A DNA stretch of 64,000 bases from Hoeflea prorocentri. GTDB taxonomy: Bacteria > Pseudomonadota > Alphaproteobacteria > Rhizobiales > Rhizobiaceae. Below are positions 18,007-47,328 of the stretch, in pieces (positions within the stretch are counted from its first letter, which is position 1; each line of letters opens with the position of its first letter). Made by a program: the position numbers and the translations under genes. The stretch lies in contig NZ_JAPJZI010000001.1 in the NCBI RefSeq assembly GCF_027944115.1, forward strand, positions 3,224,001 through 3,288,000, in the 5' to 3' direction. The notes under the pieces are model-generated. The model saw only the letters and a list, made by a program, of their open reading frames with translations, was not told where the DNA came from and did no database searches.

Positions 18007-18022
18007 TCATGAGGAGGTAACA

Positions 18023-27929: not shown

Positions 27930-28745
27930 TTACCGGCGATCACGAAAAGGGATGCCTGCCGTCCCCTCACCGCGCCTGTCGCCCGGCGGCGCCCAGGTCG
28001 CCGGATCGACAATCATCGCCGCAAGGGCATCGGCAGAGACCTCCAATATGGCCTCGCCCTTGGCGGCGCTTGCGCTGGCCGGCTTGCCGGCAACACCATC
28101 GCCGGTCTGGTGCACAAATGGCCGCCAGCGATAGGAATGCCGCCCGGCTGAGAGGAATTTCAGATCAGCCATCGTGCCGATTTCGGAAAGATGCGCGGTG
28201 TCGACGAGATCGGGTTCCAGCGCCATCATTGCAGAGGTTTCTCCCTCGCAGGCATGTTGCAGGCTGTCCTGGTCCTCCAGCAGCTCATCGATCGCCGCGG
28301 CAGCCTCATAGGCATAAGTGGTTGCGACAAGAGTAACGTCGAGCTGCGGCGCATATTCGTCGCAGAATTGCTGCATGGCCATGATGTTGCCGCCATGGGA
28401 ATTGGAAATGAGGATATCCCTGAAGCCGTGCCGGCTCAGGGATGTCACCAGATCGCGCAGCACAAGGCGAAAGGTCTCGTGGCTCAGGATCAGCGTCCCC
28501 CCAAACGGCATGTGATGTTCCGAAAGGCCATGCCAGACCACGGGCGTGACCAGTGTCGGACGTTTTTCGTAGGCCCTGCGGGCAGCGCGAACCGCGACTT
28601 CGTGGCCGATGCGTGTATCGGTCATGACCGGCAATTGCGGACCGTGCTGTTCGATCGAGGCGACCGGCAGGATCACGACCGAATCCTGTGTCGCCAGTTC
28701 ACGCAGTTCATGCGCCTTCAAACGCGCCCATTCCACTTCAGCCAT
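27930..28745 (-). CDS. Creatininase family amidohydrolase
   Basis: A 271-residue metal-dependent amidohydrolase. Metal ligands are visible in SIEQHGPQLPVMTD (Glu, His, Asp), SNSHGGN and CEGETSAM, the standard creatininase-fold set. Family members open creatinine or hydrolyse formamides in FAD/F420 or mycofactocin-type pathways and guanine-derived rings. ATG at 28745 has GGAGG eight bases upstream; the frame extends to 28970 without a credible start. Convergent with the DUF1127 gene and divergent from the GNAT gene. Substrate unknown. Confidence 0.9.
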   Translation of the reverse strand: MAEVEWARLKAHELRELATQDSVVILPVASIEQHGPQLPVMTDTRIGHEVAVRAARRAYEKRPTLVTPVVWHGLSEHHMPFGGTLILSHETFRLVLRDLVTSLSRHGFRDILISNSHGGNIMAMQQFCDEYAPQLDVTLVATTYAYEAAAAIDELLEDQDSLQHACEGETSAMMALEPDLVDTAHLSEIGTMADLKFLSAGRHSYRWRPFVHQTGDGVAGKPASASAAKGEAILEVSADALAAMIVDPATWAPPGDRRGEGTAGIPFRDRR

Positions 28746-28868
28746 GTTCGATACCTCCAGACTTTTGATAAGACTAACAAAGGCTGACGGGGCTGTCTTT
28801 CTCGTAGAACTACGATGGCGCCGGGCGTAAAAGAGGGACGACCCACGGGCCCGGAAGGAAGAACCAAA

Positions 28869-29366
28869 ATGATACCGACCCTTAATAGCGAACGTCTGTT
28901 GTTGCGCGCACCCGCGATGCATGACTGGCCGGACTATTCCGAGCTGATGCAGTCCGAACGGGCCGTTCACATGGGCGGCCCGTTTTCAACCGCTGCCGCC
29001 TGGGGCATGTTCTGCCAGGATGTCGCTCAGTGGGCACTTATGGATCACGGCGCCTTGATGATGGAAGACCGCAAGAGCGGCGCGTGTGTCGGTCAGGTCG
29101 GCATCAATCATGGCCCGCTCTTTCCCGAGCGCGAACTGGGCTGGCTCGTCTATCCGCAGGCCGAGGGAAAAGGCTATGCGTTTGAAGCGGCGAAGACCCT
29201 AAGAGACTGGGCCTTCAAGATTCAAGGCTTTGAAACACTGGTCAGCTATATCGACAGCGACAATACCCGCTCGATCAGGCTAGCGGAACGGCTTGGCGCG
29301 ATTCTGGACGATGATGCGCCGCGGCCCCATGAGGACGACCTCGTGTTCAGGCACCCGAAACCCTGA
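28869..29366 (+). CDS. GNAT acetyltransferase, RimJ/RimL-like
   Basis: A 165-residue N-acetyltransferase. It starts LNSERLLLRAP, the RimJ/RimL-type entry strand, with acetyl-CoA-binding region PQAEGKGYAFEAA (the Q/RxxGxG/A loop) and the closing VSYIDSDNTRSIRLAERLGA typical of this branch. ATG follows GGAAGGAAG. Substrate not predictable. Stands alone between the creatininase and LysE genes. Confidence 0.88.
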   Translation: MIPTLNSERLLLRAPAMHDWPDYSELMQSERAVHMGGPFSTAAAWGMFCQDVAQWALMDHGALMMEDRKSGACVGQVGINHGPLFPERELGWLVYPQAEGKGYAFEAAKTLRDWAFKIQGFETLVSYIDSDNTRSIRLAERLGAILDDDAPRPHEDDLVFRHPKP

Positions 29367-34250: not shown

Positions 34251-35618
34251 CTATCGGGCCCTGCCGGTCAGCCAGCCAAGGACAACGGCGCTGAGCAGCC
34301 CGTTGCCGGAAAGATATCCGCTGTCGCCCTTGCCGGAAACGCCGCAGGCCGCACCGCCGGCGGCAAAGAGATTGGGAAAGGCGGCGCCGTCACCGTCCAG
34401 AACCCGGCCATCGCCGTCGGTTCTGAGGCCGCCTTGTGTATGGAACAGCGCGCCGGTCACGCGAACGCCGCAAAACGGCGCCTGAAGCGGCGGACCGGAA
34501 AAACTGCGCCCGAACCCGTCGGTCCCTTGCACAGGAATATCGGCAATCGTGCGGGTCAGTTCTTCCGCCGGCAACCCAAGGCCAGCCGCCAGGCCTTCCA
34601 CAGTATTGTCGGTTTTTACGGCACCGGACGCCTCTGCCCGTTTGAAATCCTCAAACTGGCGGGCGATGTCGGCAATCCTGGCATCGAAAATCGCAAAGGC
34701 TTCGCCACCCGGTTGGGCGAGAACAGCCCTTGCCGCCTCGGAATAGCCCTGCGCCTCGTTCCAGAATCGGCGACCGTTTTTATTGACCTGCACGCCGCCC
34801 TCGGTGATCACCGCCCAGGTGATCAGGATGCCATGCGGATGCGCGACATTGCCATGACCCTGATAGGCGCCGAGATAGCGTAATTCAGCACCCAGCTCGC
34901 GGCCCCACAATAGGGCCTCGCCGCGATTGCCGTCGTGGCCGAACCAAAGCCCGTCTCGGATATCCGGCATATGCTCGGCGACCAGTTCGCGATTGCCGCC
35001 AAAGCCGTTGCAGGCAAGGATGAGCCGGCTGCAGCCGATGGTTTCGCGCACGCCATCCGGCCTGACAACCGCGACACCGCGGACAGTTCTCCCGTCGACA
35101 CAGAGCCGTTCGGCGCGCCGTTCGCAGACAATGTCGATGCCGGCGATCTCGCAGGCGGTCCTCAGCGCATCGATGAGTTCGGCCCCGGACCGTGTGGGCA
35201 ATCCGTGCATGCGCCTGCGGCTATGACCGGGATAATCGAAGTTGGCGACCACGGAAAACGGCAGGCCGTGGACCTCGGTCAGCCAGTCTATGACCTTCGG
35301 GGCATTTTGCGTCAGCGAGGTGACCAGCGCGTCTTCATTCTCGCCATGGGCCTTGGCCTGAATGTCCTTTGCGAAGAGATCAGCGCTGTCTTCAATACCG
35401 GCTTCGGCCTGCGCTCTCGTGCCTGCGGCCGGGATGAGACCGGCGGAGAGCGCGGTCGAGCCGCTCGGCACCGCATCGGCTTCGACAACCAGCACTTCGC
35501 GTCCGGCTTCCTTTGCGGACAGTGCTGCAACAAGCCCACAAGCGCCTGCGCCCACAATCAGTGTTCCGCATTCGAGGTCGAAATTTTCCGGAGCGGGCGC
35601 TGTGCGGCTATTCGGCAT
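34251..35618 (-). CDS. FAD-dependent oxidoreductase, fumarate-reductase/tricarballylate-dehydrogenase-like
   Basis: A 455-residue flavoprotein. The dinucleotide-binding motif GAGACG lies near residues 22-27 and the closing FAD-contact segment is FAAGGAACG...GYLSGNGLLSAVVLG. The body is the FRD/SDH/TcuA/3-ketosteroid-dehydrogenase type, which adds or removes hydrogen across a C-C bond next to a carboxylate or carbonyl. No flavin-attaching or heme domains are present. ATG 35618 lies 11 bases inside the preceding lyase gene. Last gene of the six-gene leftward operon. In context it could oxidise a substituted succinate to the unsaturated acid for the LeuCD-type hydratase, or reduce one (inference). 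Confidence 0.87.
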   Translation of the reverse strand: MPNSRTAPAPENFDLECGTLIVGAGACGLVAALSAKEAGREVLVVEADAVPSGSTALSAGLIPAAGTRAQAEAGIEDSADLFAKDIQAKAHGENEDALVTSLTQNAPKVIDWLTEVHGLPFSVVANFDYPGHSRRRMHGLPTRSGAELIDALRTACEIAGIDIVCERRAERLCVDGRTVRGVAVVRPDGVRETIGCSRLILACNGFGGNRELVAEHMPDIRDGLWFGHDGNRGEALLWGRELGAELRYLGAYQGHGNVAHPHGILITWAVITEGGVQVNKNGRRFWNEAQGYSEAARAVLAQPGGEAFAIFDARIADIARQFEDFKRAEASGAVKTDNTVEGLAAGLGLPAEELTRTIADIPVQGTDGFGRSFSGPPLQAPFCGVRVTGALFHTQGGLRTDGDGRVLDGDGAAFPNLFAAGGAACGVSGKGDSGYLSGNGLLSAVVLGWLTGRAR

Positions 35619-36468
35619 CGTAGGCTTTGCCCCTGGCAAGCATGTCCTCGGTTCCGATGACGTCATTCAAGCCCGGGAAATCGAACATGCGATCGGCAAA
35701 GGGCCGATTGCTGCCGTTTTCGCGCAGGCTGCGGTAGTAAGCCTGTGCGGTGTGGGCCACCGCCCTCACGATACCGCCCGGGAAAATCACGATGGAAAAA
35801 CCCTGATCCTGCAGGTCCCTGGCGCTGCTGATCGGCGTTGCCCCGCCTTCGACCATATTGGCCAGAAGCGGCACGCGCCCGACGAAGTGGGTCGTAATGT
35901 CGTTCATCTGATCGCGCGATTGCGGCGCCTCAATAAAGAGCACGTCGGCACCGGCCTCAAGATAGGTTTCGGCGCGCTCGATCGCCGCGTTAAGGCCCTC
36001 GACGGCCACCGCGTCGGTGCGGGCAATAATCAGCGTCTCCTCCGAGTGCCGAGCATCTGCCATTGCCCGGACCTTGCCGGCCATCTCGGCCGCGGAAATG
36101 AGAGACTTGTCCGCCAGATGTCCGCAACGTTTCGGATAGGTCTGGTCTTCAATCTGCAAGGCGGAGGCCCCCGCCCGCTCGTAGAGGCGCATGGTGCGCT
36201 GCGCATTGAGTGCATTGCCGAAGCCCGTATCGGCATCGATGATGACCGGCAGATCGCTGCGGTCCGAGATCAGCGTCATTGTCTCGGCCATCTCTGTGAC
36301 CGAGGTGAGGCCGATATCCGGTCGCCCAAGCCGCGTATAGGCAACCGCCGCGCCGCTGAGATAAAGCGCCTCAAAGCCCGCAGCTTCGGCGAGCGAGGCG
36401 GTCAAGCCGTCATAGACGCCGGGCGCCACAAGAATTTCCTTCGCCGCAATGCGGGCCTTGATGCTCAT
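35608..36468 (-). CDS. Isocitrate lyase/PEP mutase superfamily lyase
   Basis: A 286-residue TIM-barrel lyase. Metal-binding acids are in IDADTGFG (78-84), and KRCGH at 113-117 carries the Cys of the lyase branch (methylisocitrate, dimethylmalate and related lyases) rather than phosphonate mutases. LFIEAP at about 178 and SIVIFPGG near 232 complete the pattern. Expected to cleave a 2-hydroxy-succinate-type acid into a 2-oxo acid and a carboxylate. ATG overlaps the stop of the isochorismatase-fold gene (ATGA). Pairing with a LeuCD-type hydratase suggests hydration then cleavage of a substituted maleate, as in the dimethylmaleate segment of anaerobic nicotinate breakdown (inference). Confidence 0.9.
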   Translation of the reverse strand: MSIKARIAAKEILVAPGVYDGLTASLAEAAGFEALYLSGAAVAYTRLGRPDIGLTSVTEMAETMTLISDRSDLPVIIDADTGFGNALNAQRTMRLYERAGASALQIEDQTYPKRCGHLADKSLISAAEMAGKVRAMADARHSEETLIIARTDAVAVEGLNAAIERAETYLEAGADVLFIEAPQSRDQMNDITTHFVGRVPLLANMVEGGATPISSARDLQDQGFSIVIFPGGIVRAVAHTAQAYYRSLRENGSNRPFADRMFDFPGLNDVIGTEDMLARGKAYDAE

Positions 36469-37085
36469 TTGCCGCCCTCCAGCCACTCAAGCACCTCGGC
36501 GCAGGTCATCTGCCCGGTGACCGTTGCGAGCGACGTGACGGTTGCGCCATGAACTTCGTCTGAAAAGGCCGCACACCCATCCGTCAGCATCACGGTTTCG
36601 ATGTTGCGCAGATGGGCATCCCTCAGGGTCGAGGCGACACCGCCATTGGTGACAATGCCGCCAACGATCAGGGTTTTGATGCCCTTCGCCCGCATGACGT
36701 ATTCCAGCCGCGTCTGGTAGAAGGCGGAATAGGCAATCTTCTCGATGACAAAATCAGCCGGTTGGAGCGCGTCGACCAGCGTGTGGCCAAAACCGCCCGG
36801 CGCAAAATCGCCCTTGCCGAGGAACGGTCGCAGCTCTTTCAGGTGCGGCGCAATCAGCGGCTCCCCACTGGCATCCGGAACCAGCGTAAACTGCGCGGAG
36901 ATATAGGTTCCACCCCTGGCACGAAGCGCCTTGGCGAGCGGTGCGATGCGCTCAGGCAGCGCCAGGATGCTGTCGGCCGTCTGGTTTGCGCGACCATAGG
37001 CGCCTTTCGGATGGAGGAAGTCGTTTTGCAGATCAATCGTCAGAAGAGCGGTGCTCTGCGGACTCCAGCTGTTCAGGTCACTCAT
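36465..37085 (-). CDS. Isochorismatase-fold hydrolase without catalytic cysteine
   Basis: A 206-residue isochorismatase-superfamily protein. Asp18 (IDLQNDF) and Lys116 (EKIAYSAF) of the triad are present, but the nucleophile position in the usual GVxTNxCV motif reads GIVTNGGV: Cys is Gly at residue 149 (codon 36641-36639). Amidase members of the family need that Cys; PhzD-like isochorismatases, which cleave an enol ether, also have Gly there. So this enzyme may not be an amidase. Both ends overlap neighbours by 4 bases (ATGA), firmly inside the operon. Confidence 0.9.
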   Translation of the reverse strand: MSDLNSWSPQSTALLTIDLQNDFLHPKGAYGRANQTADSILALPERIAPLAKALRARGGTYISAQFTLVPDASGEPLIAPHLKELRPFLGKGDFAPGGFGHTLVDALQPADFVIEKIAYSAFYQTRLEYVMRAKGIKTLIVGGIVTNGGVASTLRDAHLRNIETVMLTDGCAAFSDEVHGATVTSLATVTGQMTCAEVLEWLEGGK

Positions 37086-39145
37086 GCGGAGTCCTCCAAG
37101 GTCTCGATTATCGTGTTACCGAAACGATCGACACGGCCACGAAGTCCCGGTTCGATCAGGACGGTCGTATCCGGCTGTTCCAGAATGGCCGGCCCGTCCA
37201 CCACGGTGCCAACCGGCAAGGCGAGCCGGTCGTAAATCGCCGTCTCATGCCAGCTGTCGCCAAAGTGAACGCGGCGCGTCGTTTTAGCCTCAACCGAGCC
37301 GCTTGTATCTGGAGCAAGGGTTTCGAGATCGAATTTCGGCCGGATCCCTGTGACGGCGCTGCGCAGGTTGAGAATTCGGCGGACGCCGTTTTTCAAGAGC
37401 CGTCCGAAGGTCGCCTCATAGGCCCGGTCGAACGCGTTCTCAATCTCTTCCTTGGTGGGCGCGGTCACCACATTGTCGTCGGTCTTCACGTCGATGGGCA
37501 CGGAAACAGTATGGGTCTGACCGATATAGGCCATATCGAGTTCGAAGCTGACCTTGCGGGCTTCGAAATTCGTCCGCGCCGCATCCAGAGACGCCATGCC
37601 CTGATCGGTATGGGATTGCATGAAAGCACCGAGCGCCGCCTCGTCGAGATTTCCGACAAGCGTGTTGATCGTCTGAACAAAATCCTGGCGCATATCGGCA
37701 ATGACGCAGCCCATGGCCGAGGTCACGCCAGGATAGCGCGGTACGATGGCGCGCGCGATGCCGACTTCAGCGAGCATGGCGCCGGCATGAAGCGCCCCGC
37801 CGCCGCCAAAGGGCATGAAGGCAAAGCGTTTCGGATCAAATCCCCGCTCGATGCTGACGAGACGAATCGCGCCGGCCATACGCGAATTGGCAACGCGCAG
37901 GATTGCCTCGGCAGATTGAAGCGTATCGAGATTGAGCGGTTTTCCAACATGCGTGTCGATGGCGCGCGCTGCCGCCTCGACATCCAGCCGCTCCAGCTTG
38001 CCGCCGATCGGGTTGTCCGGATCGATACGGCCGAGGACGACATTCGCATCGGTGACCGTCGGGCGGTCATTGCCCAGCCCGTAGGCGACAGGCCCGGGAT
38101 CGGAGCCGGCGCTTTCCGGCCCGATATTCAAGAGACCGCCCTTGTCGACCCAGGCAATGGAGCCGCCGCCGGCGCCGATAGTCGTGATCTCGATCATCGG
38201 TGCGCGCACCACCATGCCGAAATCGATCGAGGTCTGCGGCGAGAGCATGGACTGACCCTCGGCAATCAGCGAAACATCGAAACTGGTGCCGCCCATATCG
38301 CCGGTGATGACATTGTCGAAACCCGCCGATGAAGCGATATAGCCGGCGGCGATCACGCCTGCCGCAGGCCCCGAAAGCGCGGTGCGGACCGGAAGCCGGC
38401 AGGCCGTATCCACGGCCATGACGCCGCCATTGGACTGCACGATCATGAACTCGCCGTCAAAACCGCCGGATTTCAATGCCGCCTCGAGACGCCCGAGATA
38501 GCCGGAGACTTCAGGCTGGAGGTAAGCGTTGAGCGCCGTTGTCGAGAAGCGCTCGAACTCGCGGATTTCAGGCAGTATCTCAGAAGATGCGGAGACATGC
38601 GGATTGGGCCAGATGTCGCGCACTGCCGCAACGGCCTCAGCTTCGTTTTGCGGATTGGCATAGGCATTGGCAAAGAGGATGGAGACGGCAGCGCATCCCT
38701 GTTCCAGCAAGGTGCCAGCGGCTTTGCGCACCGCGCCAAGGTCCACAGGCGTACGGATCGTTCCATCTGCAAGCGTGCGTTCGGGAACCTCCAGCCGGTC
38801 GCGCCGGTCGACGACCGGTTCAAAATCGCCACGCAGGCCCCAGGTGCGCGGCCGGTCGCGGCGGCGCATTTCGAGGACATCGCGCAGGCCTTCAGTGCAA
38901 ATCACTCCGATTTTCGCACCCTTGCGTTCCAACAGGGCATTGGTGCCGGCCGTTGTGCCGTGAACGACAACGGAAATCCCGGAAAGATCGGTCACCTCCT
39001 GCCCGATCCCGTCAAGGAACCCGCCCGACTGGTCGGGCCGCGTCGTCGGAACCTTGGCAACTGCGGCGGTGCCCTCTTCTTCGTTGAGTATAAAGACATC
39101 GGTGAATGTGCCGCCGACATCGACGCCGATCATGCGTCCGCTCAT
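37082..39145 (-). CDS. hyuA: Hydantoinase/oxoprolinase subunit A
   Basis: A 687-residue ATP-binding subunit. The ASKHA-type nucleotide fold shows GVDVGGTFTDVF at 6-17, HGTTAGTNALLERKG near 65, SGPAAGVIAAG and TGDMGGTSFDVSLI near 290. The C-terminal region is the usual HyuA tail. With HyuB it couples ATP hydrolysis to opening of cyclic amides or imides (5-oxoproline, N-methylhydantoin, caprolactam) or to ketone carboxylation. Overlaps HyuB and the isochorismatase gene by 4 bases each. Separate A and B subunits, as is usual in bacteria. Confidence 0.93.
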   Translation of the reverse strand: MSGRMIGVDVGGTFTDVFILNEEEGTAAVAKVPTTRPDQSGGFLDGIGQEVTDLSGISVVVHGTTAGTNALLERKGAKIGVICTEGLRDVLEMRRRDRPRTWGLRGDFEPVVDRRDRLEVPERTLADGTIRTPVDLGAVRKAAGTLLEQGCAAVSILFANAYANPQNEAEAVAAVRDIWPNPHVSASSEILPEIREFERFSTTALNAYLQPEVSGYLGRLEAALKSGGFDGEFMIVQSNGGVMAVDTACRLPVRTALSGPAAGVIAAGYIASSAGFDNVITGDMGGTSFDVSLIAEGQSMLSPQTSIDFGMVVRAPMIEITTIGAGGGSIAWVDKGGLLNIGPESAGSDPGPVAYGLGNDRPTVTDANVVLGRIDPDNPIGGKLERLDVEAAARAIDTHVGKPLNLDTLQSAEAILRVANSRMAGAIRLVSIERGFDPKRFAFMPFGGGGALHAGAMLAEVGIARAIVPRYPGVTSAMGCVIADMRQDFVQTINTLVGNLDEAALGAFMQSHTDQGMASLDAARTNFEARKVSFELDMAYIGQTHTVSVPIDVKTDDNVVTAPTKEEIENAFDRAYEATFGRLLKNGVRRILNLRSAVTGIRPKFDLETLAPDTSGSVEAKTTRRVHFGDSWHETAIYDRLALPVGTVVDGPAILEQPDTTVLIEPGLRGRVDRFGNTIIETLEDSA

Positions 39146-40836
39146 ACCCGGACCTCCCGCCATGCGGGGCCGTAAAGCCTGTCTGCCCGGTCCGGACTGA
39201 CAAGGCCGCGGGCGACATCAAGGGCGATATCGGCAGCCTGCCGATCCTCGGCTTTGCCATAACCGCCACCGCCGGGTGTCTCGAGCCGCACGGCCTGTCC
39301 CTGTCTCAGGCGAATGCCGCGTATCTTGGAGGCAAGTCGCGGTTGCCGCCATCCATCGTCCTGCTCGTAGGAAAATATATTCAATGCCGCATCCTGGCCT
39401 TCGGCGATGCCCTTGGGCGCAAAACGCCCGCGTTCACCGAACAAAAACGCCTCCGCGCCGTTTTCCTCCAGCACCTCGATTTCGTAGACAGCGCCCATGC
39501 CGCCGCGATGGGCACCCGCCCCCGCGCTATCTGAGCGCAACGCCCATTGGCGGAACATCACAGGATAGGCTGCTTCGAGAATCTCCATCGGCGGGATCGT
39601 TGCCGTCGAGATCGGTGCGTTGCCATGATTAAGGCCATCCGTCTCGGGCGAGCCGCCATGCCCGCCGCCATAGAAACTGAACATGACCCAGGGCTGGCCG
39701 TTGCTGCGCTTGCCGGCAATCGACAGCGCATTGATGGTGCCATAGGCATTGGCGACGACCCGCTCCGGAGCAGCCTTTGCGAAGGCGCTAAAGACCACGT
39801 CGATCATACGCAGGATGGTTTCGGTGTACCCACCGGTCGGCGCCGGGAATTCGGCGGAAAGGAGCGAACCTTCCGGCACCTTGACCTCAATTGGCCGCAT
39901 CACGCCGGCATTGGCGGGCAGCGCAGGAAAGACGTGTTTGATTGCCACATAGGCCGTTGCGACAGTCGTCGGCAGAGCAATATTGACCGGACCGGCACAT
40001 TGCGGAGCCGAACCTTCAAAATCCAGGATCATCCGGTCGTCACGGATTTCCAACGCGACGCGGATTGCCAGCGGCGTATCGGTGATGCCGTCATTATCGA
40101 GAAAATCCTCGGCCTCCCAGCGGCCGTCGGGCAATCCCTCAAGTTCCGAGCGCATCAGCGCTTCGGCCCGGTGGCCCAGCGCGTCAAGGGCGGCGTCCAC
40201 CGTGTCAGCCCCGTATTCATCCAGCAATTCGTCCATGCGCCTGATGCCAAGATCGAGCGCGCCCATCTGGCCGTTCAGATCCCCCATCGCCGATTGCGGC
40301 AGGCGCGTATTGCGCAGGAGAATGTCGATAATGTCCTGATTGACCACGCCGGCGCGGGCCAGCTTGACCGGCGGCAGGACAAAAGCTTCCTGGAAAACTT
40401 CGGTGGCGGCCGGATTGTAATTGCCGGGCACCGCGCCGCCGACGTCGTGCCAATGACCGACGGAGGCGAGATAACAGAACAGCTTGCCGTCGCGGAAATA
40501 GGGACGCACCAACCGCATGTCGCTGAGATGCGTGCCGCCGATATGTGCGTCGTTGAAGATGTAGATGTCGCCGTCCTGAAGATCCCCGTCAGCAGCCGCT
40601 TTCTCAATCACCGCTTTGACGGCAAAGGACATCACGCCGACAAAAATCGGCAGCCCGGACTTGCCCTGAACAAGCGTGTCGCCGCTTTGTGCGTGATAGA
40701 GCCCGTGGCTCGCGTCATGAGCCTCGGCGATAATCGGGTTGAAGGCGGCGCGAAAGAGGGTCGCATCCATCTCATCGGCGATCTGCTCCATGCGCCCGGC
40801 AAGAACCGAAAGGGTGATAGGATCGATATCAGTCAT
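39142..40836 (-). CDS. hyuB: Hydantoinase/oxoprolinase subunit B
   Basis: A 564-residue HyuB subunit. DPITLSVLAGRMEQIADEMDATLFRAAFNPIIAE at the N-terminus, FVGVMSFAVKAVIE, and the metal-binding-type segment NDAHIGGTHLSDM near residue 100 are diagnostic; ETPGGGGYG close to the end is also typical. It provides the ring-opening active site with HyuA. ATG 40836 overlaps the stop of the tautomerase-SnoaL gene by 4 bases, so a long frame upstream to 40953 was rejected. The identity of the cyclic substrate is the key unknown of this cluster. Confidence 0.93.
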   Translation of the reverse strand: MTDIDPITLSVLAGRMEQIADEMDATLFRAAFNPIIAEAHDASHGLYHAQSGDTLVQGKSGLPIFVGVMSFAVKAVIEKAAADGDLQDGDIYIFNDAHIGGTHLSDMRLVRPYFRDGKLFCYLASVGHWHDVGGAVPGNYNPAATEVFQEAFVLPPVKLARAGVVNQDIIDILLRNTRLPQSAMGDLNGQMGALDLGIRRMDELLDEYGADTVDAALDALGHRAEALMRSELEGLPDGRWEAEDFLDNDGITDTPLAIRVALEIRDDRMILDFEGSAPQCAGPVNIALPTTVATAYVAIKHVFPALPANAGVMRPIEVKVPEGSLLSAEFPAPTGGYTETILRMIDVVFSAFAKAAPERVVANAYGTINALSIAGKRSNGQPWVMFSFYGGGHGGSPETDGLNHGNAPISTATIPPMEILEAAYPVMFRQWALRSDSAGAGAHRGGMGAVYEIEVLEENGAEAFLFGERGRFAPKGIAEGQDAALNIFSYEQDDGWRQPRLASKIRGIRLRQGQAVRLETPGGGGYGKAEDRQAADIALDVARGLVSPDRADRLYGPAWREVRV

Positions 40837-41399
40837 GCTTGCGCCTTTGTTTCCGCAATGTCGTTCCAGACGTCCTGCCGGACTATCCTGCCGTCGGTGA
40901 TCTCGAACCGGTCCACAAACCGGATGCCGGAAAATGCCGTTCCGTCCGGCCATTCACCCGAAAGCGTTCCCCGGCAATAGACGACGGATGCATCGCCTTC
41001 GGTCTGCGCGGCGTCGAAACCTTCATAGGTCTTTTTGACAAAACGGTAACGGGGCGCTGCCCATTCCAGCAACTCTTCCAGCTTCGTCATTCCGCCCGTT
41101 CCGGGAAAATACATGGTGAAACCATCTCCCAACAGCGCCTTCGCTGCTTCGATCTGGCGGCGCTCCATTGCCTCAAGATAGGTGCGGACAAGTTCGCACG
41201 GGTCCGGCAGCGCGGGCGCCGGCTTTCTTCGGCTGCGACCGCGATAGTAGTCGTCCTCCTGCATCTCATGGATCATGACAGTGATCGCTTCCGGCGCTGC
41301 GGGCACGACCATGCGTACGGCATCGGTCAGCGCTTCTCCCAGGCGGCGTTTTTCATCCGGCCCGTATCCTTCCAGAACATGCAATTCGACAATCGGCAA
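40833..41399 (-). CDS. Tautomerase (4-OT-like) fused to SnoaL-like domain
   Basis: A 188-residue two-domain protein. If translation starts at the TTG at 41399, it begins M-PIVELHVLEGYGPDEKRRL, so Met removal exposes the catalytic Pro1 of the 4-oxalocrotonate tautomerase family; a GGAGG site five bases upstream supports this start over the ATG at 41444, which would bury the proline. Residues about 2-60 are the tautomerase domain and about 66-185 an NTF2/SnoaL-like domain (LVRTYLEAMERRQIEAAKALL, GIRFVDRFEITDGRIV). First gene of the leftward operon. Probably isomerises an enol or unsaturated acid; the fusion is uncommon. Confidence 0.85.
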   Translation of the reverse strand: MPIVELHVLEGYGPDEKRRLGEALTDAVRMVVPAAPEAITVMIHEMQEDDYYRGRSRRKPAPALPDPCELVRTYLEAMERRQIEAAKALLGDGFTMYFPGTGGMTKLEELLEWAAPRYRFVKKTYEGFDAAQTEGDASVVYCRGTLSGEWPDGTAFSGIRFVDRFEITDGRIVRQDVWNDIAETKAQA

Positions 41400-41420
41400 G
41401 CGATCCTCCCATACCCAACC

Positions 41421-41438
41421 TGTATTATAGATAATACA
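41421..41438. promoter_or_regulatory. Palindromic operator over the leftward operon promoter
   Basis: TGTATTATAGATAATACA is a perfect 8+2+8 inverted repeat. On the minus strand its half contains TATAAT (41429-41424), an exact -10 hexamer lying 25 bases before the TTG start, so a bound repressor would block the promoter. AATACATT recurs at 41433-41440 and 41479-41486, nearer the gntR side. The adjacent HutC-type GntR is the obvious ligand-controlled binder (inference). Confidence 0.7.
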
Positions 41439-41546
41439 TTTCATGTACGCTTGTTAATACCAAATTTTTGCGCAAGAAAATACATTAGCTTGATTTTCTG
41501 AAAAGCCCGGTTACCATAAGATCAAGACGGTAAGGGATGCAAACAC

Positions 41547-42350
41547 ATGGACAGACGCGGAACAACCATGCTTCCTGAGGGCGCCAAAGCGCGCCGCGTC
41601 TACCTGTCGCTACGCGATCAGATTGCCGACGGGCAGCTTGGCGTCGGCGAAAGCCTGCCGGGCGAGCAACGCCTTGCAGAAAGTTTTGGCGTCTCTCGCG
41701 TCACCATCCGCCGCGCGCTCGATGTCCTGGCCGATTCCGGGCTGATCGTCCGCCGCGCCGGCAGCGGCTCGACCGTCAGCAAGGCCGATACGCACGACAA
41801 ACCGGTGGCGATGGATTTCACGACGCTGATGCCGCAGCTCGTCGAGATGGGCCACAGCACAACCGCACGGCTCCTGTCATTCTCCTATGGCCCCGCACCG
41901 GAAATCGTTGCCAAGGCAATGGATATCGGCAAGCACGACAAGGTGCAGATCGCAACGCGCATACGCATCGCCGACGATGTGCCGTTCTCGCATCTGACCA
42001 CCTATGTTCCGGCATCGATTGCGCAAAACTATTCCGAAGACGATCTGGCGACCACGCCATTGTTCAAGTTGCTTGAACGCAGCGGCGTGCAGATCAAGGA
42101 GGCCCATCAGTCGGTATCGGCGACGCTGGCAGGCCCGGATGTTGCCGAGGCGCTTGGTGTCGCGGTCGGTTCGGCCCTTTTATCCCTGAAGCGCGTGGTG
42201 CGCGACGTGGACGGCAATGGTGTGGAATACCTCTCCGCGCTCTACCGCCCGGATATGTTCCGGCTGGAAATGCCACTGACGCGGGTCGGCAGCGGCAGCG
42301 CCCGTCATTGGGAACCGGCTATCGGGCAAAATGAAGGCGGCGGCACATGA
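41547..42350 (+). CDS. GntR family regulator, HutC subfamily
   Basis: A 267-residue repressor: GntR winged helix at residues 15-80 (VYLSLRDQIADGQLGVGESLPGEQRLAESFGVSRVTIRRAL) and a UTRA ligand-binding domain at about 95-245, which usually binds a pathway metabolite. First gene of the rightward operon; its stop overlaps the LeuC-type gene start (ATGA). The palindrome 41421-41438 is 109 bases upstream. Expected to repress both divergent operons and to be released by the substrate or an intermediate. Confidence 0.92.
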   Translation: MDRRGTTMLPEGAKARRVYLSLRDQIADGQLGVGESLPGEQRLAESFGVSRVTIRRALDVLADSGLIVRRAGSGSTVSKADTHDKPVAMDFTTLMPQLVEMGHSTTARLLSFSYGPAPEIVAKAMDIGKHDKVQIATRIRIADDVPFSHLTTYVPASIAQNYSEDDLATTPLFKLLERSGVQIKEAHQSVSATLAGPDVAEALGVAVGSALLSLKRVVRDVDGNGVEYLSALYRPDMFRLEMPLTRVGSGSARHWEPAIGQNEGGGT

Positions 42351-43753
42351 ACGCGCCGGCGACCCTTCTCGACAAAATCTGGTCCGCACATGAGATCGTG
42401 CGCCGGCCCGACGGCACATCATTGCTTTGGGTCGATCGCCATCTGGTGCATGAAGGGTCTCATCACGCCTTTGCCAAGCTTGCCGAACGCGAAGAAAAGG
42501 TCGCAGAACCCTCCCTGACGTTCTGCGTAGTCGATCACTACGCACCGACACGCGGGCGGAACGGCCCTATGACGCCGCAAATCGCCACTATGATCGAGAC
42601 GCTTCGGGAGAATGCCGCCGCACACGGCCTGACACTCTTTGATCTCGATGATCCGCGCCAGGGCATTGTCCATGTCATCGGCCCTGAACAGGGTCTGACG
42701 CTTCCCGGCCTTCTAATCAATTGCGGCGACAGCCACACCTCGACCCACGGCGCTTTCGGGGCGCTCGCTTTCGGAATCGGCGCCACAGAGGTGGCTCATG
42801 TGCTTTCGACCCAGACGATCTGGCAGAAGAAGCCGGCGGCCATGCGGATCACAGTCGACGGCCCGCTTGGCCCCGGCGTAACGGCCAAGGATATCGCTCT
42901 CAACTGGATTGCCCGGCTGGGCACGGGCGGCGCACAGGGCCACGCGGTGGAGTATGCCGGCAGCACGATTGCCGATCTGAGCATGGAAGGGCGCATGACA
43001 CTCTGCAATCTTTCCATTGAGGGCGGTGCACGCTTCGGAATGGTCGCACCGGACGAAACGACGATCACCTACCTTAAAGGCCGGCCCTTCACACCGAAGG
43101 ACGACGCATGGACAGAGGCCGTGGACGTCTGGCAGCATCTTGTCTCGGACGATGACGCCGCGTTTGACCGCGAGGTTTTTTTCAAGGCCCATGAGATCGC
43201 ACCAACGGTTACTTGGGGCACCAGCCCCGAGCAGGCGGTGCCGATCGATTCAGCAATCCCCGATCCGTCGCAATTGGCGGACACAAAGGCCGATGCCGCG
43301 CGCGGCGCCCTTGACTATATGGGGTTGACCGCTGGCCAGCCGATCGCCGGAACGCCCATTGATGAGGTTTTCATCGGGTCCTGCACGAACGGGCGGATTG
43401 AGGACCTTCGCGCGGCAGGCGCGGTTCTAGCCGGCCGAAAGGCGAAGGTGCCGGGACTTGTCTCGCCCGGTTCGGCCATGATCAAGGCGCAGGCGGAAGA
43501 AGAAGGCCTCGACCGGATCTTTTCCGAGGCCGGCCTTGAATGGGCTTCGGCAGGCTGCTCGATGTGCGTTGCCATGAACGGCGATCATGTCGCCCCCGGC
43601 AAACGCTGCGCATCTTCAACCAACCGCAATTTTCGCGGCCGGCAGGGACGCGGCGCGCGCACCCATTTGATGTCGCCGGCGATGGTTGCCGCGGCAGCCG
43701 TCACCGGCGCCATCGCCGATGTGCGCCCTCTTCTGATGGGGAGGGCCGCATAA
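42347..43753 (+). CDS. leuC: Aconitase-family hydratase large subunit, LeuC-like
   Basis: A 468-residue hydro-lyase large subunit closely following the LeuC pattern. The [4Fe-4S] cysteines are in GSCTNGR (near 347) and GCSMCVAMNGD (near 406 and 409); CGDSHTSTHGAFGALAFGIG near 125 binds substrate. Full-length and apparently intact. Although it would be annotated as 3-isopropylmalate dehydratase, its place between a GntR regulator and a TRAP transporter, opposite a lyase, argues for hydration of a substituted maleate in catabolism rather than leucine synthesis (inference). Overlaps gntR by 4 bases and the small subunit by one (TAATG). Confidence 0.9.
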   Translation: MNAPATLLDKIWSAHEIVRRPDGTSLLWVDRHLVHEGSHHAFAKLAEREEKVAEPSLTFCVVDHYAPTRGRNGPMTPQIATMIETLRENAAAHGLTLFDLDDPRQGIVHVIGPEQGLTLPGLLINCGDSHTSTHGAFGALAFGIGATEVAHVLSTQTIWQKKPAAMRITVDGPLGPGVTAKDIALNWIARLGTGGAQGHAVEYAGSTIADLSMEGRMTLCNLSIEGGARFGMVAPDETTITYLKGRPFTPKDDAWTEAVDVWQHLVSDDDAAFDREVFFKAHEIAPTVTWGTSPEQAVPIDSAIPDPSQLADTKADAARGALDYMGLTAGQPIAGTPIDEVFIGSCTNGRIEDLRAAGAVLAGRKAKVPGLVSPGSAMIKAQAEEEGLDRIFSEAGLEWASAGCSMCVAMNGDHVAPGKRCASSTNRNFRGRQGRGARTHLMSPAMVAAAAVTGAIADVRPLLMGRAA

Positions 43754-44364
43754 TGGCAGGCTGGAACACGCATCAAGGCCGAGCCGTCCTATTGCCCATC
43801 GACCATATCGACACCGATCAGCTCATTCCCGCGCGCTTCATGTCGGTTCCACGCAGGGAAGGCTATGGCGACTATCTGCTTCATGATCTTCGCCGTGACC
43901 ATGAAGGCGAGCTGCACCCGGACTTTCCGCTTAACCGCGTCAGCGATGCGAGCGTGCTGGTATCCGGGCATCATTTCGGCAGCGGCTCCTCGCGCGAAGC
44001 AGCCGTCTATGCTCTGGTCGACGCCGGTATCCGGGTCGTGATCGCGCCGAGCTTCGGGGACATTTTTGCCAGCAATGCCGTCAACAACGGATTGCTGCCG
44101 GCACGGATCCGGGCCGAGGATGCGGCCTTACTCGCCGAGCTGCTTGCCGACAACTCGGGCCTTGCGCATATCGATCTCGAAGCACTGCAGATCGGCGTCA
44201 ACGGGACCCACCTGCCCTTCGTTCTGGACGATGGCTGGCGCACAAAACTGATCAATGGCTGGGACGATATCGACCTGACACGCCAACACGAAACGAACAT
44301 AAGCGAATTCAGGAAATCAAGAATGCAATCCGCACCCTGGGCGCAGCCCGCAGGAGCGGATTGA
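43753..44364 (+). CDS. leuD: Aconitase-family hydratase small subunit, LeuD-like
   Basis: A 203-residue swivel-domain subunit. HIDTDQLIPARFM near residue 18, GHHFGSGSSREAAVYAL near 75 and NAVNNGLLPARI near 115 are the LeuD landmarks. It joins the LeuC-like protein to form the active hydratase. Its loop after the first motif, SVPRREGYGDYLLHD, differs from the short loop of isopropylmalate isomerases that I know, which could shift specificity (inference). The ATG shares one base with the leuC stop. Confidence 0.9.
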   Translation: MAGWNTHQGRAVLLPIDHIDTDQLIPARFMSVPRREGYGDYLLHDLRRDHEGELHPDFPLNRVSDASVLVSGHHFGSGSSREAAVYALVDAGIRVVIAPSFGDIFASNAVNNGLLPARIRAEDAALLAELLADNSGLAHIDLEALQIGVNGTHLPFVLDDGWRTKLINGWDDIDLTRQHETNISEFRKSRMQSAPWAQPAGAD

Positions 44365-44455
44365 GAGGCAATGACGGATGCAACACACCATCCGGACCTT
44401 GCCGGTAGACCAATGGGACAACGCTCATTGCTGTCCCGAACCACGGAGGAATGAA

Positions 44456-45466
44456 ATGAACAAGATGATCATCGGCGGCCTTGTCGCCAGCACCACGCTC
44501 TTTGCCGCGGTGGCGCATGCGGAAGACAGGATCTCAGCGGTCCATGCCTTCCCGGAAACACTGATTTACACAAAGAGCTTCCTGTCCTTTGTCGACAAGG
44601 TCAACGAGGCCGGCAAGGGCGTCGTACAGATCGACGTGCGCGGCGGCCCCGAAGCCATTGGCATGTTCCAGCAGCCTGACGCGGTCCGCGACGGTGTCGT
44701 CGACATGGTTTATACGCCGGGTTCCTTCTACGGCGGCGCGCTGCCCGAGAAAGACGCCATGGTTGCATCGAACCTGACAGCCGTCGAGACACGCGAGAAT
44801 GGCGGCATTGAGCTGATCGACCAGATCCATCAGGAAAAGATGGGCCTGAAATATCTCGGCTGGTTCGACAGCGGCGTTTGCTACAATCTGTGGACCCGCG
44901 ACGAGCCGAGCTTCGACGATGCCGGCAACCTTGAGGTCGAGGGCCTGAAGCTGCGCGGCAACAATGTCTACAACGCCTTCTTCACCAACTATCTCGGCGC
45001 TCAGGTGATCGACCTGCCGACCGGCGAGGTTTATTCGGCGCTGCAGCGCGGTGTTGTCGATGCAACCGGCTGGACACAGATCGGCCTGATCGATCTGAAA
45101 TGGAACGAGTTCCTCAACTACCGTATCGAGCCCTGCTTCTTTTCCACCGATCTTGGCGTTATCGTCAATCTGGAGAAATGGAACAGCCTGAGCGATGAGT
45201 CCAAGAAGATCCTGCAGGATGTCGCCATCCAGCATGAAAAAGACAGCGTCGAAGCCCTGCGGGCCAAGCGCGATGAGGACTTCGCCGCACTGGAAGCCTC
45301 CGGCATGAAGGTTGTCACCCTCGAAGGCGAGGCAAAGGCCAACTATCTTGCCGCTGCCCGCGAGAAGACCTGGGAGCGTATGAAGGGATTGATGGCCGAT
45401 CAGCCGGGCGGAACAGATAATTACGACCGCCTGATCGAGCACTTCTACGATCTCGACGCCAACTAA
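44456..45466 (+). CDS. dctP: TRAP transporter substrate-binding protein
   Basis: A 336-residue periplasmic DctP-type solute-binding protein. Signal peptide at residues 1-22 (cleavage VAHAED). The mature protein has the DctP pattern, with QIDVRGGPEAIG and NNVYNAFFTNYLGAQVIDLPTGEVYSALQRGVVDA in the hinge and ligand region. Carboxylate ligands are usual, bound through a conserved Arg; the segment GLKLRGNN carries an Arg at the expected place. GGAGG precedes ATG 44456. A hairpin separates it from dctQ, which could keep its transcript more abundant. Confidence 0.93.
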   Translation: MNKMIIGGLVASTTLFAAVAHAEDRISAVHAFPETLIYTKSFLSFVDKVNEAGKGVVQIDVRGGPEAIGMFQQPDAVRDGVVDMVYTPGSFYGGALPEKDAMVASNLTAVETRENGGIELIDQIHQEKMGLKYLGWFDSGVCYNLWTRDEPSFDDAGNLEVEGLKLRGNNVYNAFFTNYLGAQVIDLPTGEVYSALQRGVVDATGWTQIGLIDLKWNEFLNYRIEPCFFSTDLGVIVNLEKWNSLSDESKKILQDVAIQHEKDSVEALRAKRDEDFAALEASGMKVVTLEGEAKANYLAAAREKTWERMKGLMADQPGGTDNYDRLIEHFYDLDAN

Positions 45467-45473
45467 GAACAAC

Positions 45474-45497
45474 CGGGCCTGCTTCACGGCGGGCCCG
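45474..45497 (+). terminator. Intercistronic hairpin after dctP
   Basis: CGGGCC, a 12-base loop, GGCCCG: a 6-bp GC stem between dctP and dctQ with no T-tract. Such hairpins often protect or attenuate binding-protein transcripts; true termination is doubtful. Confidence 0.4.
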
Positions 45498-45514
45498 TCA
45501 TCCGGACGGGACCG

Positions 45515-46021
45515 ATGACAGCAATCAGGAAGGGCTATTCCGCCTTGCTTTACGCCATGGCCTTCATCGCCGGGGCGACGCTGGTCTGGCTGATGGTCTC
45601 CGTCATCCTGTCGGTCATGATGCGCAATTTCGGGCTGCAGCCCTTTGCCTGGCTCTTCACCTCCGCTGAATACGGCCTTTTCTACATGACGATGCTCGGA
45701 GCGCCCTGGCTGGTGCGCGAAAAGGGTCACGTGCATATCGAACTGGTGACCTCGGCGCTGTCGGAGTTTCCAAGGCGCATTGTCAGCCGCGCCGTGGCGC
45801 TGGCCTGCATTGCCGTCTGCATCATCCTCGCCTGGAAGGGTGCGGAGCTGTTCCTGACCAATATCGAGCGCGGCGATGTCGACACCCGCGCCTATTATTA
45901 TCCGCGATGGCTTTTGACCGTATGCTTCCCGCTCAGCTTCGGGCTGATGGCCATTGAGTTCATGCGGTTCGTCTTCGGCTCTGAGCTCATGCATACCGGC
46001 GAAGCGGGAATTCACGAATAA
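45515..46021 (+). CDS. dctQ: TRAP transporter small membrane subunit
   Basis: A 168-residue DctQ-family inner-membrane protein with four hydrophobic helices (about 10-35, 45-65, 85-110 and 125-150). Motif LGAPWLVREKGHVHIELV in the second loop is typical. It bridges the binding protein and DctM. Its TAA stop shares its last base with the dctM ATG. Confidence 0.92.
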   Translation: MTAIRKGYSALLYAMAFIAGATLVWLMVSVILSVMMRNFGLQPFAWLFTSAEYGLFYMTMLGAPWLVREKGHVHIELVTSALSEFPRRIVSRAVALACIAVCIILAWKGAELFLTNIERGDVDTRAYYYPRWLLTVCFPLSFGLMAIEFMRFVFGSELMHTGEAGIHE

Positions 46022-47328
46022 TGGAATGGTACGAGGCCCTCCTGCTGCTGCTTGGCACTATCGTCTTTCTCATGGCGCTCGGCATGCCGGTGGCGCTCGC
46101 CTTCCTGGCGGCCAATATTATCGGCGCATGGGTGTTCATGGGCGGCGACCGGGGCGTCGGCCAGCTTTTGAACAACGGTCTCGGCGCGCTGACCAAATAT
46201 GCGCTGGTCCCGATCCCGCTGTTCCTCCTGATGGGCGAAATCTTCTTTCATACCGGCCTTGGCGGGCGCATGTTCAACGCCATCGACCGGTTGCTCGGCC
46301 GCCTGCCCGGGCGGCTCAGCTATGTGACGGTGCTTGGCGGAACCGGATTTTCGACGCTCTCCGGTTCATCGATGGGGTCGACGGCCCTGCTCGGCTCGCT
46401 GATGGTGCCGGAGATGAACCGCCGCGGCTACAAGTCCCATATGAGCATCGGCCCGATCCTCGGCACCGGGGGTCTGGCGATCATCATTCCGCCATCGGCG
46501 CTCGCCGTGCTGCTTGCAACCCTGGCGCAGATTGATGTCGGCGCCCTGCTGATTGCCGGTGTCATCCCCGGGCTGATCCTGGCGTCCTTCTACATCGGCA
46601 CGATCTGGCTGCAGACCAAGATCGACCCGGACGCCGCACCGGCCTATGACGTCCCGCCCATGACCTTCGGCCAAAAGACGCTTTTGTTGATGCGCGACGT
46701 GGTGCCGATGGTCGGCGTCATGGTCGTTATTGTCGCGCTGATGATCAATGGCTTTGTCACGCCATCCGAGGCTGCCGCCTTCGGAGCGCTCGGCGTGCTG
46801 ATCCTCGCCGCCGTGTTCCGCTGCCTGACCTGGGATGCTTTGCGGCGGTCGATCAACGGCGCACTGCGCGTGACACTGATGGCCTATCTCATCGTCTTCG
46901 GATCGGCGACGTTCAGTCAGCTTCTCGCTTTCTCCGGGGCCTCGCGCGGCCTTGTCAGCTGGGCGACCTCCTTCGAACTTGCGCCTCTCGCCATGCTGCT
47001 CGTCATGTTCGCCGTGCTTTTGCTTCTCGGCATGTTCATGGAGCAGATTTCGATGATGCTCCTGACCGTGCCGATTTTCTTCCCGCTGGCGCAGACGCTC
47101 GGTTTCGACCCGGTGTGGTTCGGCCTCATCATGCTGCTCGCCCTTGAAATCAGTTTCACGACACCGCCATTCGGGCTGCTCTTATTCGTGATGAAGGGCG
47201 TGTCGCCGCCGGGCACCACTATGCGCGAAATCTATACGTCAGCCTTCCCGTTCATCGGCTGCTCGCTCCTGCTGGTCGCACTGCTGATCGCGTTTCCGAA
47301 ACTGGCGCTGTGGCTGCCCTATCAATAA
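46021..47328 (+). CDS. dctM: TRAP transporter large membrane subunit
   Basis: A 435-residue DctM permease with about 12 hydrophobic helices. ALGMPVALAFL near residue 20, GDRGVGQLLNNGLG and GSSMGSTALLGSLMVPEM near 120, and TTPPFGLLLFVMKG near 380 are conserved DctM features. Sodium-coupled uptake of the cluster's substrate, most likely a carboxylate, is expected. It ends the rightward operon; recQ follows convergently. Confidence 0.94.
   Translation: MEWYEALLLLLGTIVFLMALGMPVALAFLAANIIGAWVFMGGDRGVGQLLNNGLGALTKYALVPIPLFLLMGEIFFHTGLGGRMFNAIDRLLGRLPGRLSYVTVLGGTGFSTLSGSSMGSTALLGSLMVPEMNRRGYKSHMSIGPILGTGGLAIIIPPSALAVLLATLAQIDVGALLIAGVIPGLILASFYIGTIWLQTKIDPDAAPAYDVPPMTFGQKTLLLMRDVVPMVGVMVVIVALMINGFVTPSEAAAFGALGVLILAAVFRCLTWDALRRSINGALRVTLMAYLIVFGSATFSQLLAFSGASRGLVSWATSFELAPLAMLLVMFAVLLLLGMFMEQISMMLLTVPIFFPLAQTLGFDPVWFGLIMLLALEISFTTPPFGLLLFVMKGVSPPGTTMREIYTSAFPFIGCSLLLVALLIAFPKLALWLPYQ

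Follow-up and report, generated by a model that had tools for sequence, protein, structure and literature searches.

The window analysed here, a stretch of 64,000 nucleotides of the Hoeflea prorocentri genome (C1:3224001–3288000 of a two-contig, 5.04 Mb genome), contains at positions 34251–47328 a cluster that unites the HyuA and HyuB subunits of a cyclic amidase with a LeuCD-type hydratase, an isocitrate lyase (ICL)-family lyase, and an importer. The first-pass annotation had described two divergent, tightly packed operons at this place, and profile scans and motif checks found all twelve genes intact. The gene starts were chosen by us, with HyuB and LeuD beginning inside the listed open reading frames (ORFs). 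With these starts, neighbouring genes of the left operon overlap at every one of its five junctions, by 4, 4, 4, 4, and 11 bases, and those of the right operon at three of five.

The left operon runs leftwards from position 41399, and its six genes are on the minus strand. The tautomerase-SnoaL fusion (40833–41399) most likely starts at the TTG codon at 41399, which is preceded by GGGAGGA and places the catalytic proline at position 1, so that the protein has the N-terminal proline of the 4-oxalocrotonate tautomerase family. The closest solved homologue (PDB: 9mua and 9mup, E = 7e-68) agrees with this start, as the chain of 9mua begins at the same proline. HyuB (39142–40836; Pfam E = 5e-171) is the second subunit of the amidase. 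HyuA (37082–39145), the ATP-binding subunit of hydantoinase/oxoprolinase type, contains the N-terminal, middle, and C-terminal domains and the ATP motif DVGGTFTD. The remaining genes encode an isochorismatase-fold protein of amidase ancestry that lacks the nucleophilic cysteine (36465–37085; Pfam E = 3e-33), the PrpB/ICL-family C–C lyase (35608–36468), and a flavoprotein with the FAD_binding_2 domain of the fumarate reductase/ketosteroid dehydrogenase fold (34251–35618; Pfam E = 1e-57).

The right operon, on the plus strand, starts with a GntR/UTRA regulator of the HutC type (41547–42350; UTRA E = 1e-33, GntR E = 6e-19). It is followed by the large (LeuC, 42347–43753) and small (LeuD, 43753–44364) subunits of a hydratase, which appears to be a dedicated isozyme, and by the three parts of a tripartite ATP-independent periplasmic (TRAP) importer: the solute-binding protein DctP (44378–45466; Pfam E = 5e-26; the start of its signal peptide is probably at 44456), the small permease DctQ (45515–46021; Pfam E = 3e-22), and the large permease DctM (46021–47328; Pfam E = 1e-74). 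The nearest structures to DctP are PDB 4mnc and 4mni (E = 1e-47), which reportedly bound benzoylformate; a search of open papers for these two entries gave unrelated work only. The palindrome TGTATTATAGATAATACA is located between the divergent operons (41421–41438) and is proposed to be the operator of the GntR regulator. Of 71 divergent intergenic regions of related loci, 29 contain the pattern TGTATTN6AATACA, which was derived from palindromes in the same loci and is absent from the remaining 1,369,991 bases of these loci.

That HyuAB, the hydratase, and the lyase form one catabolic module had been proposed in the first-pass annotation, and homologous clusters keep the association. A search of genome contigs with HyuB found at least 442 relatives, the best 80 of which were kept; by title, these loci are mostly from Rhodobacterales, with additional members from Roseibium/Labrenzia and Nitratireductor. 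Two of them, L166 and L167, appear to be duplicates, and a large number of contigs break off within the locus. All twelve genes are present in 47 of the 80 loci. HyuA was found in 80, the tautomerase-SnoaL fusion in 76, LeuC in 75, the lyase and the isochorismatase-fold protein in 73 each, LeuD in 72, the GntR regulator and the flavoprotein in 67 each, DctP in 62, DctQ in 60, and DctM in 58. Three Sulfitobacter plasmids carry the same twelve genes in the same annotated order.

Selection by LeuC gives a similar picture. LeuC matches at 1e-173 or better were found in 40 of 397 genomes of the order, including that of H. prorocentri itself. Among the 37 loci of the order with LeuC of at least 62% identity, 32 contain HyuA or HyuB and 31 the lyase; neither was found in L087, L088, L101, and L097, the contig of which is only 5.5 kb long. 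In the whole LeuC-selected set, 46 loci, read in stretches of up to 29 kb that are often incomplete, hold HyuA or HyuB at 55% identity or more, together with the lyase in 40 and the isochorismatase-fold protein in 29. The two selections share some records (L118/L049, L197/L057, L209/L076, L217/L077, and L200/L079). As a control, 21 housekeeping leuC loci, including the one from H. prorocentri, contain none of the Hyu, lyase, isochorismatase-fold, glutaryl-CoA dehydrogenase, or CaiB genes within about 6–9 kb. The gene association is real and conserved, and is not leucine synthesis. When ORFs of at least 150 residues without a match in the reference set were grouped over 123 loci and the 30 largest groups were read by eye, no group exceeded 10 loci; those that reached 10 appear to come from one genus, and smaller ones cross genera. 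One such neighbour, an extra dehydrogenase-like protein, is common to L157, L177, L178, L183, L184, and L187; these six clusters are of the window type but have another TRAP importer, with DctP at about 50% identity.

LeuC contains the motifs GSCTNGR and CSMC, which supply the three cysteine ligands of the iron–sulfur cluster. The presence of other leuC genes in the genome had been suggested as a check on the pathway idea, and three leuC-type genes score above the curated cut-off: that of the window (TIGR00170, 612–613 bits), one at C2:357376, and the best, at C2:22476, with 797 bits. Because the genome has a better leuC elsewhere, and the operon is conserved, leucine biosynthesis was rejected as the main role of the window LeuCD. 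In a FastTree phylogeny the cluster-type LeuC sequences are strongly grouped, with 9 changes compared with 36.9 in shuffles, but do not form one clade.

The leuC at C2:357376 adjoins another gene of the phosphoenolpyruvate (PEP) mutase family and belongs to a second, diverged core in the same genome (C2:355203–362792, recorded as L009:12204–19793), in which genes for a lyase, an isochorismatase-fold protein, LeuD, and LeuC are accompanied by divergent genes for HyuA and HyuB. The identities to the window proteins are 53% for LeuC, 40% for the lyase, 39% for LeuD, 35% for HyuA, 28% for HyuB, and 27% for the isochorismatase-fold protein. The occurrence of two such old relatives in one genome points to a core of six genes. 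The substrate of the second cluster should differ from that of the window pathway. Its isochorismatase-fold protein retains the cysteine and is nearest to N-carbamoylsarcosine amidohydrolase (E = 4e-47), with 3ot4, named NicF, third. Beside this cluster, L010 contains genes that were named by eye from their sequences as those of a sugar-type ATP-binding cassette (ABC) importer and a histidinol-dehydrogenase-like protein.

The KRCGH motif reported for the lyase in the first reading is present as PKRCGH, and K[KR]CGH is found in all 107 aligned rows, which include the lyase of the second cluster and the isocitrate lyase of the same genome. In each of the 105 window-type rows the lyase has a phenylalanine where the isocitrate lyase of H. 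prorocentri has a tryptophan, a difference that we take to separate methylisocitrate from isocitrate lyases. The protein misses the cut-off of the prpB model TIGR02317 (302 against 354 bits). It matches 2,3-dimethylmalate lyase with E = 7e-51, and several methylisocitrate lyases score higher.

The nature of the lyase products is indicated by genes that accompany the cluster in some relatives. Of 126 homologous loci, 17 (10 of the 80 and 7 of the 46, with some records repeated) encode glutaryl-CoA dehydrogenase, a CaiB-family CoA-transferase, or both within the operon or next to it: 14 have the two genes, L061 and L091 have only the dehydrogenase, and L116 has only CaiB. Over its full length, the L049 dehydrogenase matches human glutaryl-CoA dehydrogenase (E = 1.5e-185), and the other linked dehydrogenases are 65–72% identical to it, except for near-identical copies from Tistrella. 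Succinate–glutarate CoA-transferase is the top match of all six CaiB proteins scanned (512–533 bits; runner-up 274–303). Five of the 17 loci (L116 and those of Tistrella) have these genes between the ones for the isochorismatase-fold protein and LeuC; in 11, among them loci of Marivita, Nitratireductor, and Cohaesibacteraceae, they follow the flavoprotein gene, and in one (Yoonia) they are at the other end. Because the positions differ, the link probably arose more than once. Glutaryl-CoA dehydrogenase is also present in 37 of 38 genomes with a cluster-type LeuC, and is missing from one 91%-complete genome; since such genes are common anyway, this count merely fails to refute the connection. 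In H. prorocentri, the nearest homologues of the dehydrogenase and CaiB are at C1:2313267 (73% identity) and C1:808166 (53%), respectively.

The repeated linkage indicates that the carboxylate released by the lyase is probably glutarate, a product that the first-pass annotation had not foreseen and that refines it. If so, the substrate of the lyase bears a carboxyethyl arm: an ICL-family enzyme that releases glutarate would have to cut a 2-hydroxy-3-(carboxyethyl)succinate, and LeuCD would make this compound from a 2-(carboxyethyl)maleate that may or may not bear a second substituent. The lyase is a candidate 2-methylhomoisocitrate (or homoisocitrate) lyase. The imide that matches the maleate is carboxyethylmaleimide or, with a methyl group, hematinic acid, which is 3-(2-carboxyethyl)-4-methylmaleimide. 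Of the earlier proposal that an imide or its dicarboxylate is imported, opened, and cut, the conserved HyuAB–LeuCD–lyase module supports the general course, and the glutaryl-CoA dehydrogenase and glutarate CoA-transferase homologues at the operons of some relatives argue against a simple dialkylmaleate as the compound.

HyuAB is proposed to be an ATP-dependent opener of a cyclic amide or imide. The best PDB match of HyuA is N-methylhydantoinase (E = 4e-131); HyuB reaches 321 bits against the caprolactamase beta-subunit model (cut-off 1000), and the equivalog cut-offs for caprolactamase were not reached. The ring-opening idea gained support from clusters in which other proteins stand in the place of HyuAB. 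In L062 and L063, from the family of the window genome, these are two relatives of the PuuE allantoinase. Those of L062 score about 130 bits with TIGR03212 (cut-off 425) and match PDB 1z7a and 3cl6, and those of L063 are 76% and 62% identical to them. In L050, plasmid 2 of Variovorax sp. RA8, the place is taken by an LLM flavin monooxygenase, which scores higher with SfnG (210 bits) than with RutA (193 bits), both below cut-off, and a flavin reductase. RutA opens the uracil ring. The occurrence of unlike families with ring-opening members before the same hydratase and lyase is the best evidence that the pathway begins with the opening of a cyclic amide. We consider the order of ring opening, hydration, and lyase cleavage likely; the context of the genes gives good support to this series, with deamidation after the ring opening.

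Other parts of the cluster are exchanged as well. In some variants a Liv-type ABC importer replaces the TRAP importer, often together with a PrpD-like gene, and Tistrella appears to divide the pathway between two plasmids. L062 (5563–18498) and L063 (7015–19900) combine the PuuE-like pair with Asp/Glu-racemase-family genes, an amidase-type protein that retains the cysteine, the flavoprotein, the lyase, and LeuCD, and are perhaps a sister pathway. In L050 (7047–18394) the LeuCD–lyase module is accompanied, besides the monooxygenase and flavin reductase, by a short-chain dehydrogenase/reductase and a RibBA-like gene. LeuCD adjoins an ICL-family lyase in L052, L106, L120, L127, L129, L130, and L131, with no HyuAB in the stretch read, and this module is possibly a dicarboxylate-only version. 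Two plasmid records contain genes annotated as nitronate monooxygenase and tRNA-dihydrouridine synthase (L047:16061–17032 and L054:2993–3970). Their products match old-yellow-enzyme models (NamA, N-ethylmaleimide reductase, and bilirubin reductase) below cut-off and are likely misannotated.

The isochorismatase-fold protein is nearest in the PDB to 3kl2, triuret/biuret hydrolase, and RutB, with NicF also related by fold. Its AlphaFold model has a pLDDT of 79, and the top Foldseek match is triuret/biuret hydrolase (E = 2e-12). The sequence TNGGV replaces the cysteine motif, with glycine in the position of the nucleophile, in all 96 rows of at least 50% identity (91 of them distinct), and the aspartate and lysine are kept. 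The Asp-Lys-Cys triad of an ordinary cysteine amidase is therefore incomplete, and this assignment of the protein was abandoned. Since the cysteine was lost in only one type of cluster and the rest is conserved, a different chemistry can be argued. Disubstituted maleamates cleave themselves through their free carboxylate, and the protein may therefore need only its acid residue. We propose that it acts as a half-amide hydrolase by substrate assistance. The proteins without the cysteine form an amidase-fold family that has been conserved despite the loss of the catalytic residue.

The flavoprotein had been called TcuA/FrdA-like. The fold is as described, and the role of a dicarboxylate enzyme was ruled out on residues: Tyr308 and Tyr451 (counted from an ORF start at 35666), which are invariant in all 83 rows, occupy the positions of the arginine proton donor and the arginine carboxylate clamp of fumarate reductase. 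The protein is below the flavo_cyto_c and TcuA cut-offs. Its best Foldseek matches are urocanate reductase and flavocytochrome c3, followed by 3-ketosteroid and cyclohexanone dehydrogenases. A ketosteroid dehydrogenase row (L238) has tyrosine at the first site and aligns poorly at the second; another (L237) was left out because it is apparently in a wrong frame. Desaturation beside an uncharged ring carbonyl agrees better with these observations than action on a dicarboxylate, and we propose that the flavoprotein is an alpha,beta-desaturase of a cyclic imide.

From the gene set, its conservation, the additional LeuCD, the lyase motif, the lost cysteine, and the glutarate linkage, all of which are observed, we infer each reaction of the following scheme. 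The TRAP importer would take up the imide. A reduced (succinimide) form would be epimerised or tautomerised by the tautomerase-SnoaL protein and desaturated by the flavoprotein. HyuAB would convert the imide to the half-amide at the expense of ATP, and the isochorismatase-fold protein would free ammonia, with the neighbouring carboxylate of the substrate as the nucleophile. LeuCD would hydrate the resulting 2-methyl-cis-homoaconitate to 2-methylhomoisocitrate, which the PrpB-like lyase would cut into pyruvate and glutarate. A CoA-transferase and then glutaryl-CoA dehydrogenase would carry glutarate onward.

We lean towards the reading, at somewhat less than an even chance, that the two operons together specify a single catabolic route for a cyclic imide with a carboxyethyl arm, most likely hematinic acid and its dihydro form. 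Hematinic acid is formed by oxidation of those rings of heme and bilins that bear a propionate, and ring-opened pigments yield hematinic acid and maleimides. The hydrogenated D ring of chlorophyll carries a propionate, and its oxidation gives the dihydrohematinic imide. Hematinic or dihydrohematinic acid is the best single guess for the substrate, though the guess itself is held more loosely than the pathway. What is most inferential in the scheme is the methyl group, on which the naming of the substrate depends. Passages of PMC7318184 describe hematinic acid as a product of chlorophyll a degradation in vitro and in leaves, cite lake sediments, and state that, except in Chl c, the D ring of chlorophylls has one of its double bonds hydrogenated. 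No description of a pathway such as that proposed here, and no paper on hematinic acid together with glutarate, was found in the open-access literature; nor was any bacterial use of hematinic acid, as far as titles and the beginnings of abstracts indicate. We know of no genes for the use of hematinic acid or maleimides.

Several points weigh against this assignment. The opening of imides usually needs no ATP, and the scheme relies on a proposed hydrolase without a cysteine. No flavoprotein was seen in the ABC-type loci L094, L098, L100, and L102, in which the core is covered; the flavoprotein may therefore be accessory. The scheme explains neither this absence nor the PrpD-like (MmgE/PrpD-family) gene of the ABC-importer variants, which is present in 16 of the 46 LeuC-selected loci. 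The glutarate linkage is absent from the window itself and limited to 17 of the 126 loci, among which L118 repeats L049 and at least four other records are shared. All six CaiB proteins score below the curated cut-off of 750, and glutarate is also produced by lysine breakdown. The nature of the second substituent (methyl, hydrogen, or larger) rests on one lyase residue, and the lyase of the second cluster shares the phenylalanine. Among the neighbours of the clusters in the 123 loci, which were grouped and read by eye with no family scan, no tetrapyrrole gene was recognised. Simple maleimides went undetected in leaves in PMC7318184.

An unlikely alternative is another ring with a carboxyethyl arm, such as 3-(2-carboxyethyl)maleimide, degraded through cis-homoaconitate and homoisocitrate to glyoxylate and glutarate. 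HyuAB, LeuCD, the lyase, and the glutarate enzymes fit this compound equally well, but the lyase has the PrpB-type phenylalanine and not the tryptophan of isocitrate lyases in 105 of 105 rows, and we know of no such abundant natural product. Less probable is the general reading of the first-pass annotation, an alkylmaleimide or alkylmaleate of the dimethylmaleate type, which would be hydrated and cleaved to give pyruvate and a simple fatty acid. The enzyme classes are those of nicotinate fermentation by Eubacterium barkeri, and the match of the lyase to 2,3-dimethylmalate lyase agrees with this route, although methylisocitrate lyases score higher. The glutarate genes would then be adjacent by accident; however, they occur at three positions, in distant genera, and in none of the 21 control loci.

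A lactam route similar to nicotinate degradation in Azorhizobium seems slightly more improbable again. HyuAB would open 1,4,5,6-tetrahydro-6-oxonicotinate or a relative, the carbon would end in glutarate, and the isochorismatase-fold protein would hydrolyse an enamine, as isochorismatase does a vinyl ether. The Azorhizobium pathway, reportedly described by Kitts in 1992, is said to finish with glutarate, followed by succinyl-CoA transfer and glutaryl-CoA dehydrogenase. The cysteine is likewise missing from isochorismatase proper, and the flank of one locus (L045) holds molybdopterin-dependent oxidoreductase genes. Nevertheless, such a route has no need for LeuCD or the ICL-family lyase, which are among the most constant genes of the clusters, and no recurring nicotinate hydroxylase was recognised among the grouped neighbours, which were read by eye only.

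A creatinine-type hydantoin or ureide route, in which HyuAB would produce an N-carbamoyl acid and the isochorismatase-fold protein would strip the carbamoyl group, has little probability. The nearest match of HyuA is N-methylhydantoinase and the paralogue of the second cluster resembles N-carbamoylsarcosine amidohydrolase, but the window-type protein is devoid of the nucleophilic cysteine, and LeuCD and the lyase would be left without a role. That the window LeuCD makes leucine beside unrelated genes is scarcely credible, even though LeuC and LeuD pass the curated leuC and leuD cut-offs (147 bits with TIGR00171 for LeuD), given the two further leuC genes, the conserved operon, and a leuB homologue in only one of the 80 loci (L187, 34% identity).

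The proposed imide pathway shares parts of its logic with several known systems. In E. barkeri, dimethylmaleate hydratase and 2,3-dimethylmalate lyase likewise combine a LeuCD-type hydratase with a PEP mutase/ICL-family lyase to convert a 2,3-disubstituted maleate to pyruvate, whereas the window pathway would be entered through HyuAB, is predicted to yield glutarate instead of propionate, and differs in importer, regulator, and flavoprotein. PrpB of the methylcitrate cycle belongs to the same lyase family, with KRCGH, and releases pyruvate, as is predicted here, and some variants of the cluster have an MmgE/PrpD-family gene; however, the window lyase is below the PrpB cut-off, its predicted substrate is one CH2 longer, and the cluster records examined have no gene annotated as of citrate-synthase type. 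Bacterial imidase and half-amidase also convert a cyclic imide through a half-amide to a dicarboxylate and ammonia, but the opener in the window is HyuAB, the amidase-like protein has no cysteine, and the dicarboxylate would be hydrated and cut. The creatinine/N-methylhydantoin pathway similarly places HyuAB beside an isochorismatase-fold hydrolase, N-carbamoylsarcosine amidohydrolase, to which the window adds LeuCD and the lyase, with the cysteine lost in window-type clusters. The maleamate amidase NicF and maleate isomerase NicE of aerobic nicotinate degradation follow a similar half-amide logic, and Asp/Glu-racemase-family genes occur in the PuuE-type clusters; in contrast, no pyridine ring enzymes were recognised, and the end product differs. 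Finally, the types of succinate–glutarate CoA-transferase and glutaryl-CoA dehydrogenase of glutarate catabolism are built into the operons of some relatives, whereas their nearest homologues in the window genome are located outside the operon.

Other genes of the window include one of the creatininase family at 27930–28970, about 5 kb from the cluster, for which no link was shown. A CoA-transferase family III gene, the product of which shares 35% identity with the glutarate-type CaiB of L049, is followed by an alpha/beta hydrolase gene at 16807–18787, and a gene for an Mrr-type restriction endonuclease is located at 9361–10275.

Chlorophyll debris is abundant in marine settings, and the cluster occurs in many Rhodobacterales of marine genera. 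A still more tentative claim than the pathway assignment is that the cluster represents the first pathway with known genes by which tetrapyrrole debris serves as a carbon source, in which hematinic acid from heme and bilins and the dihydrohematinic imide from the chlorophyll D ring would be converted to pyruvate and glutarate; on the same tentative footing, the amidase would have lost its own nucleophile since a disubstituted maleamate cleaves itself. If true, this would supply testable genes for the last stages of chlorophyll and heme breakdown by bacteria. Given the presence of the cluster in many Roseobacter-group bacteria, it would also be relevant to what becomes of a large pool of organic nitrogen and carbon. 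Even if the ring is another one, the clusters would form a modular family in which an interchangeable ring opener is followed by an amidase-like protein, a LeuCD hydratase, and an ICL-family lyase, and many of its genes that are now labelled as hydantoinase or leucine biosynthesis genes would bear wrong names.

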